From Thermococcus peptonophilus (lineage in GTDB: Archaea > Methanobacteriota_B > Thermococci > Thermococcales > Thermococcaceae): a stretch of DNA of 64,000 nt. Shown piece after piece: positions 30,624-54,913 of the stretch; position 1 is the stretch's first letter, and the number at the start of each line of letters is the position of its first letter. Below the pieces are notes generated by a model. That model did not search any database. It saw only the letters and a list, made by a program, of their open reading frames with translations, and had not been told where the DNA came from. Location: assembly GCF_001592435.1 (NCBI RefSeq), contig NZ_CP014750.1, forward strand, positions 496,001-560,000, written 5' to 3'. The position numbers and the translations under genes are program-made.

Positions 30624-30675
30624 GGTTTCTGTTATTTCTTTGCGCTTTTGTCCTCGAAACGCTTATATATTTTGC

Positions 30676-30941
30676 ATGTCCGCCACCGAAAAGGTTTCTA
30701 TCCGCTTCCCCCTGCCCTGATGCGGGAGATAGATGAGCTCGTTGAGAATGGGGAGTTCTTAAGCAGGAGCGAGTTCATCAAAGAGGCCGTTAGGTTTTTC
30801 TTTCTCCACTACGAGTCTCCCGAAGAGCTCTGGGAGAAGTACAAACTTCTAGCCAAGGGCAGGAAAATTCCGAGCGAGGAAGAAATCGAAAAGCCCCTTG
30901 AGGAAGTGGACGAGGAATGGAAGCGCTCAAGGTCGTCCTAG
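30676..30941 (+). pseudogene. Ribbon-helix-helix antitoxin with a frameshift near its N-terminus
   Basis: ATG 30676, just after the TATA-like CTTATATAT (30662-30670), reads MSATEKVSIRFPLP and stops at 30718. One base further, another frame continues MREIDELVENGEFLSRSEFIKEAVRFFF to 30941. Joined across one missing base near 30711-30717 they form a normal ribbon-helix-helix (strand KVSIRF, helices MREIDELVENG and SRSEFIKEAVRF). As read, only a form lacking the DNA-binding strand could start, at ATG 30720. It overlaps the PIN gene by 25 bases, the usual antitoxin-toxin order. Confidence 0.65.
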
Positions 30942-31357
30942 ACACGCACGTGGTAATAACCGCTGCTATAAATCCCTTCGGGAGCTCCTGGAAGGTTATG
31001 GGCTTAGTAGTAAGAAAGGAAGTCGCTTCGTACACCTCCGAGGCCATACTTGAGGAGCTACGGTTCAAGCTGACGAGCGAGAAGGTTCTAAAGTACATTG
31101 GAAGCAGGGTTTACGCCCTCTGGATTTACAGAATATTCCGGGCATCGTCCGTTCTCGTTGAACCGGCCGAGCACTTTGAGGTCTCACCTGATCCGGACGA
31201 CAACAAGTTCTTTGATGTGACCTATTCTGCAAAGGCTGACGTTCTGATAAGCCTCGATAAGCAGCACGTGCTGAAGCTGAGGGATGGGGAGAGAAAGTTT
31301 TCATTGAAGGGGCACGAGTTTTATGTTCTCTCACCAACAAAATTCAGAAGATCTTAG
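30917..31357 (+). CDS. PIN-domain toxin-like protein (COG1569 type)
   Basis: A 146-residue PIN-domain protein, probably an RNase toxin. Asp9 in VLDTHVVITA is the first acidic site, Glu residues in SEAILEELRFKL follow, and DPDDNKFFDVTYSAKADVLISLDK contains the remaining acidic cluster. It starts within the end of the ribbon-helix-helix gene. If the frameshift there is real, this toxin would lack a complete antitoxin, unless the toxin itself is inactive or controlled otherwise. Confidence 0.82.
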   Translation: MEALKVVLDTHVVITAAINPFGSSWKVMGLVVRKEVASYTSEAILEELRFKLTSEKVLKYIGSRVYALWIYRIFRASSVLVEPAEHFEVSPDPDDNKFFDVTYSAKADVLISLDKQHVLKLRDGERKFSLKGHEFYVLSPTKFRRS

Positions 31358-31486
31358 ATTTTAAATTAATTCGTATCTTTATACTACTCTAACTCCTTGT
31401 TATCAACTTTTGGTTTACAAAATATTTAAATTCCAATGTTAAATATTAACTAATGTACACAACATAAACATACGGAGGTGACCCAA

Positions 31487-31567
31487 ATGAAGCGGAAGCT
31501 GAAGATAAAGAAACTGACAAATGCCGGGTGTTACCACTGGAACAGCCATGACTCTGTCGGGCTCTGA
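31487..31567 (+). CDS. 26-residue candidate RiPP precursor peptide
   Basis: A short gene with an excellent GGAGGTG ribosome binding site (31474-31480) and a TATA-like TATTTAAA at 31423-31430. The product begins with a strongly basic leader (KRKLKIKK) and ends CYHWNSHDSVGL, with one Cys, one Tyr, one Trp and two His in 26 residues. A radical SAM/SPASM enzyme gene begins 65 bases after the stop, and an MFS transporter gene follows. That arrangement is typical for a ribosomally made, post-translationally modified peptide. The split into basic leader and C-terminal core is inference; the peptide family is not recognised. Confidence 0.7.
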   Translation: MKRKLKIKKLTNAGCYHWNSHDSVGL

Positions 31568-31577
31568 ACGGACTGTT

Positions 31578-31602
31578 ATCTTTCTTTTATTTTTGATTTT
31601 TT
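31578..31602 (+). terminator. T-rich tract after the peptide gene
   Basis: TCTTTCTTTTATTTTTG runs on into TTTTTTGG with no G/C-rich stem. Archaeal RNA polymerase terminates at such T tracts. Partial termination here would give more precursor mRNA than enzyme mRNA, as expected for a RiPP operon. Confidence 0.5.
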
Positions 31603-31632
31603 GGAATATCAAACACGGGGAGGCATGTTGAT

Positions 31633-32922
31633 ATGGTAACGTATAACGTGACTATTAGGGAGGAGCCATTTGGAGCTTATGTCCACTTGAGAGAAGGTGC
31701 TCAGGTTAGGATAGTATCCCCCGCGGAGGAAGTTATTTCAGGATTTCTTGAAGAGCCGTCAGAGTTGATAAATGAAATCTTCGAAATCTCGCCCAGCCCA
31801 AAGGACACAGTGAACATTAGAGTAATAACCCCATCAAAAACCCCAGTTTTTAGCCTTTCAGCCCCCTACGATGTATCAGTAGATGTAACCAACATTTGCA
31901 ATTTATCATGCAAACACTGTTATGCAAGTGCCTTACACAGCGGGAAACATGCTGGCTTTATGGACCTTGTGAGAATACTGTCGAAGTTAGATTCGGTAGG
32001 AGTTACACACCTAGCCATTACTGGAGGGGAACCTTTCCTTCACCCCGAACTGGACAGGATAATCAGATACATTTACCTCTCAACAAAACTCAACTTCACG
32101 GTGCTTACCAATGGAACAATATTCCGTGAGGACGTTATTGATCTTCTGTCCAAGGTTAAGGAGGTCGGAGGCCTTTTCATAAGCCTCGATGATGTAGACA
32201 GTGAGAGCCATGATGAATTCAGAGGAACACCTGGTGCATGGGAGCGAACTGTAGACTTTATCAACAGGATCAACAAGACTGAAATTCCATTTATAATAGG
32301 AACCGTTATCCACAGGCACAACAGGGACAGGCTGGGGGAGATCATAAAGTTCAGTAAAGATCTTGGAGCTGATGGAATACATTTCATGGTGTTTACCCCT
32401 GCAGGAAGGGCCTCAAAGGTCTTTGAAACATATGGTATTAACAAACATGAGGTCCAAAAGATACAACTCCAACTGGAGCATCTTGTTGAGAGGTACTCCA
32501 CAGATACGTTCAAAGTAATGTTAGATGACTTTGGATATACATTTACCTGGGAAAAACATCCAGACTCTTTTAGCACTCTAAAGGAACTAAATTTGGCAGG
32601 AGTCTGTGCTGCAGGAAGAACAATTCTCCATGTGGATAATTCAGGAAATGTATACCCATGTTCGCTGTTCCTAGGCCATAAGGAGTTCATAGCTGGGAAC
32701 CTCTTAAAGCAGGAGTTCTACGATATCTGGTTGAATTCGGAGGTACTGAATAACTTCAGGAGCAAGAGAATTGATGCTCTAAAAAACACAAGCTGTTCAA
32801 AATGCAAATTCTTCAACATTTGCAAAGGCGGATGCGCCTACAACTCATATGCGTTTTACGGCACGATCTTTAAGGAGGATCCTCTATGCCCACATATAGA
32901 AAAAATTCAAATGGGCGGCTGA
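31633..32922 (+). CDS. Radical SAM/SPASM peptide-maturase candidate
   Basis: A 429-residue enzyme. The radical SAM cluster is Cys89, Cys93, Cys96 (CNLSCKHC), followed by GGEP at 131-134. The C-terminal SPASM domain has seven cysteines (325, 343, 388, 391, 397, 401, 419), enough for two auxiliary Fe-S clusters. Residues 1-80 form an N-terminal domain of strands and helices that could be a leader-binding element; it is not a clear PqqD match. GGGGAGG at 31617-31623 precedes ATG 31633. Such enzymes install Cys, Trp, Tyr or backbone crosslinks in peptides. The base composition is more A/T-rich than in neighbouring genes. Confidence 0.88.
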   Translation: MVTYNVTIREEPFGAYVHLREGAQVRIVSPAEEVISGFLEEPSELINEIFEISPSPKDTVNIRVITPSKTPVFSLSAPYDVSVDVTNICNLSCKHCYASALHSGKHAGFMDLVRILSKLDSVGVTHLAITGGEPFLHPELDRIIRYIYLSTKLNFTVLTNGTIFREDVIDLLSKVKEVGGLFISLDDVDSESHDEFRGTPGAWERTVDFINRINKTEIPFIIGTVIHRHNRDRLGEIIKFSKDLGADGIHFMVFTPAGRASKVFETYGINKHEVQKIQLQLEHLVERYSTDTFKVMLDDFGYTFTWEKHPDSFSTLKELNLAGVCAAGRTILHVDNSGNVYPCSLFLGHKEFIAGNLLKQEFYDIWLNSEVLNNFRSKRIDALKNTSCSKCKFFNICKGGCAYNSYAFYGTIFKEDPLCPHIEKIQMGG

Positions 32923-34055
32923 TCTTTCTCACTTTTTATTTTCTACTCTCCGTCTCGATGTACTTACCTGGGCCGTATTTCATACTGTATCTCAGCACTT
33001 ACGTCGCCCTGCCCTGGATTGGTCTGGCGTACTCACTGAACAGGGCCTCCAATCTTCTGCTGGAGTATCCTTCCGGGGTGCTGGCCGACAAGGTCGGAAG
33101 GCTTAAATCTGCGATGCTGGGTTCGCTTTTGCTTGGAATGAGCATGCTCGTCCTGGTAATTTTTGGGACTCCCAGGGGTTACCTTGTGGTGGCATCTGCC
33201 CTACTAGGGGGTGCGGGGATGGCTTTCATCTCCGGTTCCTTAGAGGCGTGGGCAGTTGATGCCTTCGATAAAGCCAACTTGAAGGAGCTTTTTTCCAGCA
33301 TGGGAACGCTGAAAAACGTTGGTGGGGTTATAGCATCAATATTGGCAGGAGTGATGGTTAAATACCTTGGTTTGAAATGGCCACTTCTGGTATCCGGTAT
33401 TCTAGGTGCTCTTTCTCCGGTGGTTCTACTCGCCCTTAAGGACAACCGAGGACATTCTGAGAGCAGGATTATTCTGGGAAAGAGCCTTCAGATGTTCAAG
33501 GATGCCAGGTTTTCCATCCTGGTGTTGGTAATTCTATTAGTATCTTCTATGCTCTCAGTGTTCTTCGTGATATGGCCCCTAACCCTGAGAGACGCCGGTC
33601 TGTACGAAAGCCTTCTTGGAATTGTGTATTTCACGCTAATGATGGCCATGGCAACGGGCAGTTATCTTGCGAGAAGAGTCTCAAGCGAAATAAACGGAAT
33701 AAGAACATTCCTGCTTAGTGGAGCAGCTATTACACTGACCATAGCCCTTCTCCTTAGATTATGCCACAGCAAGCTCACGGCGGTTTTCATACTAGGCTCC
33801 CTGCTAATCTTCGAGATTTTAATAGGTGCATACTACGTCTTCATAGCCCACATACGAAACTCCGTGATCCCCTCTGAAATACGAGCTTCCGCTATTTCAA
33901 TGATCTCGCTTATAAACTCAGGGGTTGGAATGATAACTCTGCCGTTGTTTCTTGCACTGGGAGATATTGCCCTTAAATGGGCAATATGCTCAATTCTCCT
34001 GGTCATCGGCATGGTTGTATTTGAAATTTGGAAAACGAGATACGCGCAATCCTAG
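32886..34055 (+). CDS. MFS transporter, probable peptide exporter of the RiPP locus
   Basis: A 389-residue major-facilitator protein with about 12 hydrophobic segments. The loop 2-3 signature is GVLADKVGRLKS, and SGSLEAWAVDAF after helix 4 is shared with the two other MFS proteins in this window (49.2 and 56.1 kb). AAGGAGG at 32872-32878 precedes ATG 32886, which overlaps the radical SAM gene by 37 bases, so the two are coupled. Export of the modified peptide and self-protection are the natural guesses. Confidence 0.87.
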   Translation: MPTYRKNSNGRLIFLTFYFLLSVSMYLPGPYFILYLSTYVALPWIGLAYSLNRASNLLLEYPSGVLADKVGRLKSAMLGSLLLGMSMLVLVIFGTPRGYLVVASALLGGAGMAFISGSLEAWAVDAFDKANLKELFSSMGTLKNVGGVIASILAGVMVKYLGLKWPLLVSGILGALSPVVLLALKDNRGHSESRIILGKSLQMFKDARFSILVLVILLVSSMLSVFFVIWPLTLRDAGLYESLLGIVYFTLMMAMATGSYLARRVSSEINGIRTFLLSGAAITLTIALLLRLCHSKLTAVFILGSLLIFEILIGAYYVFIAHIRNSVIPSEIRASAISMISLINSGVGMITLPLFLALGDIALKWAICSILLVIGMVVFEIWKTRYAQS

Positions 34056-53155: not shown

Positions 53156-54058
53156 TCATTCTCTTCTTTCGTCTCTTCTGTGGAGCATCGTGTAGATTTC
53201 TTCCAGTGTTGGCTCGTTCCGTTTTATCTCTTCAACGGTTATGCCCCTGCTCACGAGAAGCCTGTTTAGTTCCGCCGGCTCGGCGTCTTCTACGATGATA
53301 TATCCTCCGACGATCCTTAGGGCATAGCCTTTTTCTCTGAGCACGTTCATGGCCCTCTTCTGCTCCTCTACCTTCACGATTGCTCCTTTCCCTGCAGGTG
53401 CACTCTTTCTGAACTCCTCCAGATTTCCAGAAAAGAGTACTCTCCCTTCCTTGATTACAGTAACTCTTTCACACACCTCATCAACATCGCTCAGTATGTG
53501 GGTGGAAAAGACAACGGATGCGCCCCTACCCTTCGCGTACTCTCTGAGAAAGCGCTTGAACTTCAGGCGCCACTCCGGGTCGAGGCCCTTCGTGGGTTCG
53601 TCTAGTATCAGAACTTCTGGACTTCCAAGGAAGGCCCGCGCTATCGCGGCTCTCCTCTGTGTTCCACTTGAGAGTGAGGAAACTTTTTTGTCCGCGTATT
53701 CGCTGAGTTCAAAGAACTCAATGAGCTTTTCAATCTCTTTCTCATCGTGAACTCCCTTCAGCAGGGCGTATCGCTGGAGGTTGTCGCGGACGGTGAGGTT
53801 TGGGTAGAGGAGGTCGTACTCTGGTAGGTAGCCTATTCTTGCCCTCACCTCAGGGCTTTTGAGCGGGTTGACGCCAAGAACCTCAACCCTGCCCGAATCA
53901 GGGACAAGAAGGCCAAGAATAATCCTAAAGGTAGTTGTTTTGCCCGCTCCGTTGTGGCCGAGGTAGGCGTGGACTTCACCGGGCTTTACCGTAAGAGTTA
54001 TCCCCCGAAGGACTTCCTTTCCGTTTATGGCTTTCCTCACGTTTTCGAGGACTATCAT
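53156..54058 (-). CDS. ABC transporter ATP-binding protein
   Basis: A 300-residue ABC ATPase of the exporter type. Walker A GHNGAGKTT at 34-42, signature LSSGTQRR, Walker B VLILDEPTKGLDP and the H-loop STHILSDV are intact. It pairs with the permease encoded 9 bases upstream. A two-gene ATPase/permease unit without a binding protein suggests export or resistance, for example to a peptide or drug. Confidence 0.92.
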   Translation of the reverse strand: MIVLENVRKAINGKEVLRGITLTVKPGEVHAYLGHNGAGKTTTFRIILGLLVPDSGRVEVLGVNPLKSPEVRARIGYLPEYDLLYPNLTVRDNLQRYALLKGVHDEKEIEKLIEFFELSEYADKKVSSLSSGTQRRAAIARAFLGSPEVLILDEPTKGLDPEWRLKFKRFLREYAKGRGASVVFSTHILSDVDEVCERVTVIKEGRVLFSGNLEEFRKSAPAGKGAIVKVEEQKRAMNVLREKGYALRIVGGYIIVEDAEPAELNRLLVSRGITVEEIKRNEPTLEEIYTMLHRRDERRE

Positions 54059-54067
54059 AAGTATCCC

Positions 54068-54736
54068 TCACACAAGCAGCATTCTCTCAGCGAGGCGGTC
54101 TCCAAGAGATTTTAAGATTGCAAGCGATGGAACCGAAATTCCCAGCGAGATGGCCAGAGAAAGCACTAGAGCGAGCTTCAGAGACAGAACGCTCCCAAAG
54201 TATTTGGGAACATAAACGGGAACGACGAACGCTATAAAGCCTATGGCAACCTTCACAGCGTTGAACAGTACTGATTGAAAGAGGAGCGTCGTTAGAATCA
54301 CGAAGAAAGTGAATGTGAAGAGCAAGGGCATTGAAATCAGCAATCCAGAGAGCACGGTCGTCAACGGAATGTGAACCCCACTGTAGTCTGCAAGGAGCAG
54401 TCCAACAAAACTGCCCAGAAGAATTCCAGTCGTTTCAATGACGAATCCTGCAGTTGTTTTGAGGAGAAGGAGGCGCGTGGGAGGGAAAGGAAGCGAGAGG
54501 AGGAGCTCATGAATGCCCAGGAGCTTTTCTCTGAACACTGCTCCGCTGAAGAAGAGCGAGAACATTATGGCGAGCGAGATGCTGGTGATTCCAACGATTG
54601 TCCCGCTGGAAACGGACATCCAGCTGGCCATCCAGTATACAACTGCCGTCGTCCAGGGGATCCAGATTATGTTGAGCCCGATTTGCTTTGCGGTGTATTT
54701 AACCTCCTCACGGAGCTGATCCCATGTTAGCTCCAT
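54068..54736 (-). CDS. ABC transporter permease
   Basis: A 222-residue membrane protein with six hydrophobic helices, of the ABC-2 permease type. It is first in the operon with the ATPase. GCTGAAAAATGG surrounds ATG 54736 without a strong ribosome binding site. The upstream region to 54914 has no gene. Confidence 0.85.
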   Translation of the reverse strand: MELTWDQLREEVKYTAKQIGLNIIWIPWTTAVVYWMASWMSVSSGTIVGITSISLAIMFSLFFSGAVFREKLLGIHELLLSLPFPPTRLLLLKTTAGFVIETTGILLGSFVGLLLADYSGVHIPLTTVLSGLLISMPLLFTFTFFVILTTLLFQSVLFNAVKVAIGFIAFVVPVYVPKYFGSVLSLKLALVLSLAISLGISVPSLAILKSLGDRLAERMLLV

Positions 54737-54913
54737 TTTTCAGCCTCCAGAACTTTGGTTCACAGGGATCGCTTGATCAAAGTTGGGAAATCATAGTTAG
54801 GGCATGATCCCCTCACGAAAATCACCACTATGAGTAGTTACGGAGGGATATTAAAGCTTTTCTCGAACCAGAAGTTGGCAACCTAAAGGTCGGTAAGTGT
54901 ATTAAAGGTAGCC

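Follow-up and report, generated by a model that had tools for sequence, protein, structure and literature searches.

What does a gene of only 26 codons do in front of a radical SAM enzyme and a transporter? The question is raised by three neighbouring genes in the window, the 64,000-nucleotide stretch of Thermococcus peptonophilus DNA that was analysed here. On the forward strand, a gene for a 26-residue peptide (31487-31567), preceded by a ribosome binding site GGAGGTG that can be read directly from the sequence (31474-31480), is followed by a radical SAM/SPASM enzyme of 429 residues (31633-32922) and an MFS transporter of 389 residues (32886-34055; PF07690, 1.1e-25), a presumed exporter or self-protection protein. 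The original prediction had described this layout, including the consensus ribosome site, the 65-base spacer between the end of the peptide gene and the enzyme ATG at 31633, and the 37-base overlap of the MFS gene with the enzyme gene, and all of it was borne out. It had also read the peptide as a precursor that the enzyme modifies. Our answer goes in the same direction: the three genes very probably make, chemically cross-link and export a small peptide, and the best reading of the locus is a new RiPP family that would be produced in the absence of elemental sulfur.

An open reading frame of 26 codons could by itself have arisen by chance; its conservation could not. The peptide MKRKLKIKKLTNAGCYHWNSHDSVGL consists of a basic leader, MKRKLKIKKLTNA, with six Lys/Arg among its first nine residues, and an invariant core, GCYHWNSHDSVGL. 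Its conservation was assessed on the two intact copies, those of the window and of genome G007. Twelve codons differ between them, nine silently and three by conservative replacements (R3K, K8R and T11S), all of which fall in the leader, while the final 15 residues, NAGCYHWNSHDSVGL, show no difference even though six of their codons changed silently. When the 16 substitutions that separate the two genes were simulated, about 10.3 amino acid changes were expected against the three observed (0 of 20,000 draws; P < 5e-5), and 4.1 against none in the core (P about 1e-4). The core is more conserved than the basic part, and judged by this pattern the 26-codon gene is real. No family in NCBIfam, Pfam or PDB claims the peptide. 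Weak peptide matches in three other genomes (G125, G118 and G133; E 0.09-0.25) were taken as chance.

The enzyme belongs to the peptide-modifying class and, together with the short conserved precursor gene linked to it, displays two of the features by which a RiPP locus is identified. It matches PF04055 (8.8e-23) and PF13186 (7.5e-11) in Pfam and carries the CxxxCxxC signature of the radical SAM cluster (C89, C93, C96; 31897-31920) as well as a SPASM domain (32605-32889) with seven cysteines (C325, C343, C388, C391, C397, C401, C419), for which two auxiliary Fe-S clusters are expected; its length, the CxxxCxxC positions and the number of SPASM cysteines had been predicted correctly. In an AlphaFold model the barrel and the SPASM domain are confident (pLDDT >90 for the greater part of the core), and the best PDB matches are SuiB, SkfB, CteB, PqqE and a sulfatase maturase, all of which act on peptides or proteins, a ranking that favours peptide maturases because few structures of heme-pathway SPASM enzymes have been solved and that is not independent proof. 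Residues 1-74 (31633-31854), with the motif REEPFG(A/S), are a candidate for a shortened RiPP recognition element. This region is poor in the full model and stays below pLDDT 50 in a separate one, hhalign gives 35% over 22 columns for its match to the recognition element, and Pfam PqqD was not found in the enzyme. Some RiPP enzymes lack such an element.

To which family does the enzyme belong? None of the NCBIfam equivalog cut-offs is reached, the highest scores being those of AhbD (161 bits, cut-off 500), WgkB (151, cut-off 650), TIGR04053 (142, cut-off 395) and mycofactocin maturase (135, cut-off 265), and no family in NCBIfam, Pfam or PDB claims it. As for sactipeptides and ranthipeptides, the core holds one Cys and the NCBIfam maturase cut-offs are likewise unreached. 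The nearest other enzymes are about 35% identical; by score they are AhbD-like, a point against a peptide maturase, although in a tree of 31 SPASM proteins, whose deep forks are weak, the window pair sits apart on a long branch, separate from the AhbD-like clade. By these comparisons it forms a SPASM lineage of its own. Two specific identities were rejected: an AhbD/NirJ-type heme enzyme on score (160.9 bits) and tree, and the mycofactocin protein MftC on score, with the peptide matching no family.

Do the three genes belong together? The original prediction had named two observations that would speak against its reading, namely enzyme relatives lacking a conserved short ORF upstream and a peptide that drifts freely among close strains. 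Neither was made. Among 396 archaeal relatives only three loci have an enzyme above about 35% identity, the short ORF is kept directly upstream of the enzyme in every one of them, and the core does not change between the intact copies. The peptide is present in 3 of 94 Thermococcaceae genomes; among the nearest genomes the enzyme has only two further carriers, G007 and G050, with the peptide directly upstream in both and the gene order peptide, enzyme, MFS at all three loci. The G007 enzyme is intact and 80% identical, and between the window and G007 both the peptide (88%) and the enzyme exceed the MFS protein (61%) in conservation. In G050 all three genes are broken: the enzyme, 76-86% identical in pieces, is interrupted by frameshifts and stops, the peptide gene has lost its ribosome site, start and leader, its core Cys has become Arg, and the MFS gene has decayed with them. 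This joint presence at three loci and joint decay at one imply that the genes live and die together. The upstream ORF at all three loci, the constant core and an enzyme model nearest to RiPP maturases support the peptide as precursor. No close enzyme relative (above about 35%) turned up when GTDB contigs, IMG/VR and plasmids were scanned, a search outside which records near the window may have fallen; the first GTDB scan for homologs used very narrow patterns.

The surroundings of the cassette hint at how it spreads. In the window and in G050 it lies in the same context, with a UMP kinase and an RHH/PIN pair on one side and an NAD(P)H/CoA-disulfide reductase-type gene on the other. In G011, G036, G010, G008 and other genomes the site is empty and the UMP kinase is closely followed by the reductase gene, while G015 and G035 have the RHH/PIN pair at the site and lack the cassette. 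The G007 cassette is found at another place, in an island with transposase fragments on its flanks. Mobility of the cassette is the best explanation for these arrangements, and its scattered occurrence, with one copy in decay, is what one would expect of a peptide for antagonism or signalling and not of a core cofactor. As a separate observation, the pair directly upstream of the cassette in the window (30648-31357) encodes an RHH antitoxin and a PIN toxin (TIGR00305) and occurs without the cassette in other species.

What could switch the genes on? A shared element in front of TATA was first seen by comparing the regions upstream of peptide genes in several operons. In the window it is a predicted SurR operator, AACTCCTTGTTATCAACTTTTGGTT (31391-31415), that matches the long motif GTTn3AACn5GTT (PMC12162507) on both strands (31399-31415 on the plus and 31391-31407 on the minus strand). 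As in the SurR regulon, it stands upstream of a BRE/TATA box on the forward strand, TACAAAATATTTAAAT (31416-31431), whose TATA (31425-31431) begins 26 bases after the motif start. From a position upstream of TATA SurR acts as an activator, and it leaves the DNA when sulfur is present (PMC12162507). The long motif has three matches in the window against 0.26 expected and 51 in this genome against five for a reversed control. Eighteen site regions of this genome were inspected, and several precede canonical targets (surR/pdo, which are divergent, nsr, hydrogenase beta subunits and Mrp subunits) as assigned by reading sequences; the surR gene itself was recognised from its sequence, its CxxC and its place beside pdo (L196). 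The ortholog cassette of G007 also carries the exact site on both strands.

This arrangement is not confined to one peptide. About ten other Thermococcales operons are ordered small peptide, radical SAM, transporter. Within 120 bp, an exact SurR site occurs in 4 of 10 peptide/radical-SAM operons, which are not a random draw, and in none of 61 regions taken as background (Fisher P 2e-4); when up to one mismatch is allowed the numbers become 7/10 and 4/61 (P 3e-5). Five of these operons share the 26-base spacing between motif start and TATA with the soluble hydrogenase promoter of this genome (L189). A strict promoter with the hydrogenase layout has 60 matches in 94 genomes and none in the control. 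These include the G007 ortholog cassette, and among the 18 sites that were read are those in front of hydrogenase, a TDT-type transporter and an NSR-like gene; another four belong to unrelated operons of the small-peptide/radical-SAM/transporter build, in G007 (with a GCAACSICAIC peptide), G054, G023 (where the enzyme N-terminus is not in the same frame) and G022. We infer that control by SurR recurs as a design among peptide operons: the DNA signals suggest that the cassette and several unrelated ones are switched on by the elemental-sulfur sensor when sulfur is absent.

Further sites and operons came to light along the way. The third exact match in the window (54866-54882, minus strand) has a TATA-like box 26 bases on, and about 130 bases separate it from a downstream gene pair on the same strand (54068-54736 and 53156-54058), for an ABC-2 permease and an ATPase, that resembles the pair beside a two-radical-SAM peptide operon (L058). 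Near this site, at about 56-57.3 kb, is an MFS gene resembling that of another peptide operon (L055). The strict promoter also precedes a TDT-like transporter, by eye of the sulfite/tellurite export type, in several species (L236-L239 and L242). Beside the ortholog cassette in G007, a second candidate RiPP operon (L031:5202-9139; G007:C1) encodes the peptide MVKTILSRLISGPTPAGGCCNRSQRCKNLLF, a CefB-like SPASM enzyme (142 bits, cut-off 600), an ABC ATPase and two permeases; its near-SurR site, with one mismatch, keeps the same 26-base spacing. Elsewhere in that genome (L228:200-2300; G007:C1:1151087) the strict promoter precedes a sactipeptide-like pair, in which the Cys-rich peptide MDPHYVVQAPNGKGCAACSICAICLADGPVPDFEGAGIYGLFGLF is accompanied by a radical SAM enzyme. 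The genome of the window has, at about 424 kb, an exact SurR site with a 48-residue peptide, a SPASM enzyme and a membrane transporter (L063:2896-5658). Three more strict promoters (L229, L230, L231) precede small peptides with radical SAM and membrane or transporter genes; two of the peptides share PPVGGDIG and one is alanine-rich with 72 residues. A relative of the class (G072; L066, L067) has about 20 SPASM matches, some of them in tandem pairs accompanied by PqqD proteins and by duplicated small ORFs, and looks rich in RiPP clusters.

A second signal lies just 3' of the peptide stop, where a T-rich tract (31576-31602, plus strand) is a probable leaky terminator of the archaeal kind. Its T fraction of 0.48 over 50 nt is in the top 0.2% of the window, and G007 and most of the other operons read have a similar tract after the stop codon of the peptide gene. 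Since transcription in archaea is ended by poly-T tracts, more peptide than enzyme would be expected.

How would the parts work together? We infer each biochemical and regulatory step, as follows. With elemental sulfur absent, reduced SurR would bind just upstream of TATA and activate a short precursor transcript; the T-tract would end most transcripts, and read-through would supply smaller amounts of enzyme and exporter. The enzyme would bind the lysine-rich leader and, with the 5'-deoxyadenosyl radical and its auxiliary Fe-S clusters, introduce one oxidative cross-link (-2 Da) into CYHWNSHDS, for which a thioether from Cys15 and a C-C or C-O ring through Trp18 are the likeliest forms. With a single Cys, there is room for one thioether. 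Trp18-Asn19-Ser20 and His17-Trp18-Asn19 presumably fit the general form of three-residue ring motifs, which we take as a lead only. The MFS protein would then export the product or protect its producer. We regard this overall picture, a mobile, SurR-activated RiPP cassette, as highly probable from the sequence evidence. With only slight preference, we also favour a broader view, in which Thermococcales hold a repertoire of unrelated radical-SAM peptides under one shared SurR promoter design, with production wired to elemental-sulfur availability and the CYHWNSHDS peptide as a member with an undescribed linkage.

Could the peptide instead be an expendable scaffold from which a small redox cofactor is made, in the manner of PQQ or mycofactocin, that serves a sulfur-free, hydrogen-producing metabolism, with the MFS protein exporting a by-product or being unrelated? 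The predicted SurR control in common with hydrogenase genes and the place of mycofactocin maturase among the better NCBIfam matches would suit this idea; however, its cut-off is not reached, the cassette occurs in so few genomes, one copy being decayed, with empty sites in close relatives, and neither a protease nor cofactor-finishing genes are linked to it, which together make a scaffold improbable. A substrate other than a peptide is less probable again: the enzyme might, like AhbD or NirJ, work on a tetrapyrrole or another small molecule, as its top score would allow, and the short ORF might be a regulatory leader peptide, but the score is far below the AhbD cut-off, the enzyme lies outside that clade, and the ORF is conserved in its amino acids themselves, not only in being translated, and has no run of regulatory codons.

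The least probable of the alternatives keeps the peptide but not its chemistry, and sees a cationic peptide that is exported whole, unmodified or lightly modified, with the enzyme as an activation or immunity factor. Its basic start and the lack of a leader protease among the linked genes agree with this, whereas the better conservation of the core than of the basic part does not, and SPASM enzymes beside tiny genes usually modify their peptides.

As a gene cassette the locus is well supported: the analysis shows the genes themselves, the conserved peptide, their joint occurrence, the sequence of the operator and the sites where the cassette is missing. It would represent a family of RiPP type that is new but of a kind already known, with a putative link to sulfur sensing that was unexpected. 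The full SurR site upstream of TATA, the terminator-like T-tract, the probable mobility and the many Thermococcales operons of the same build go beyond the original prediction. Mining has predicted radical-SAM RiPP clusters in many archaea, but according to a 2025 survey (PMC12144867) only two lanthipeptides, both from Haloarchaea, had been experimentally validated before it; its main text leaves the rSAM-modified class to future work, mentions no Thermococcales and describes no verified radical-SAM product. Outside subscription papers, we found nothing relevant that links SurR with radical SAM or Thermococcus with RiPPs. The small size of three genes and the existence of culturable, genetically tractable Thermococcus hosts make a first radical-SAM peptide of a hyperthermophile directly testable, and the SurR link offers growth without sulfur as a simple induction condition. 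It also suggests that these archaea couple peptide production to their energy mode, and the promoter pattern can be used to find more such operons.

How does the cassette compare with known systems? SuiB (streptide), SkfB and CteB (sactipeptide/ranthipeptide maturases) share the radical SAM and SPASM fold as top PDB matches, a tiny precursor gene immediately upstream and an exporter nearby. They differ in sequence (17-21% identity over the model) and in unrelated core residues; here the N-terminal recognition domain is only a candidate, and the transporter is of the MFS type without a peptidase domain. WgkB and TIGR04053 are among the best NCBIfam matches, with the peptide unmatched there. The archaeal AhbD-like enzymes (heme b synthase family), the top-scoring family, reach about 35% identity over residues 74-423, but have a different N-terminus. 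A SPASM protein of Laceyella sediminis (L083) shares the N-terminal LREEPFG and matches residues 6-402 with 26% identity; unlike the window enzyme it has a longer recognition-like N-terminal domain and a second radical-SAM-like gene after it, and no similar peptide was seen. For the SurR regulon of Thermococcales, the published targets belong to hydrogen and sulfur metabolism (PMC12162507), and no RiPP operon was found among SurR targets in the literature searched; what the cassette has in common with that regulon is an exact copy of the long motif, placed before TATA as for activation.
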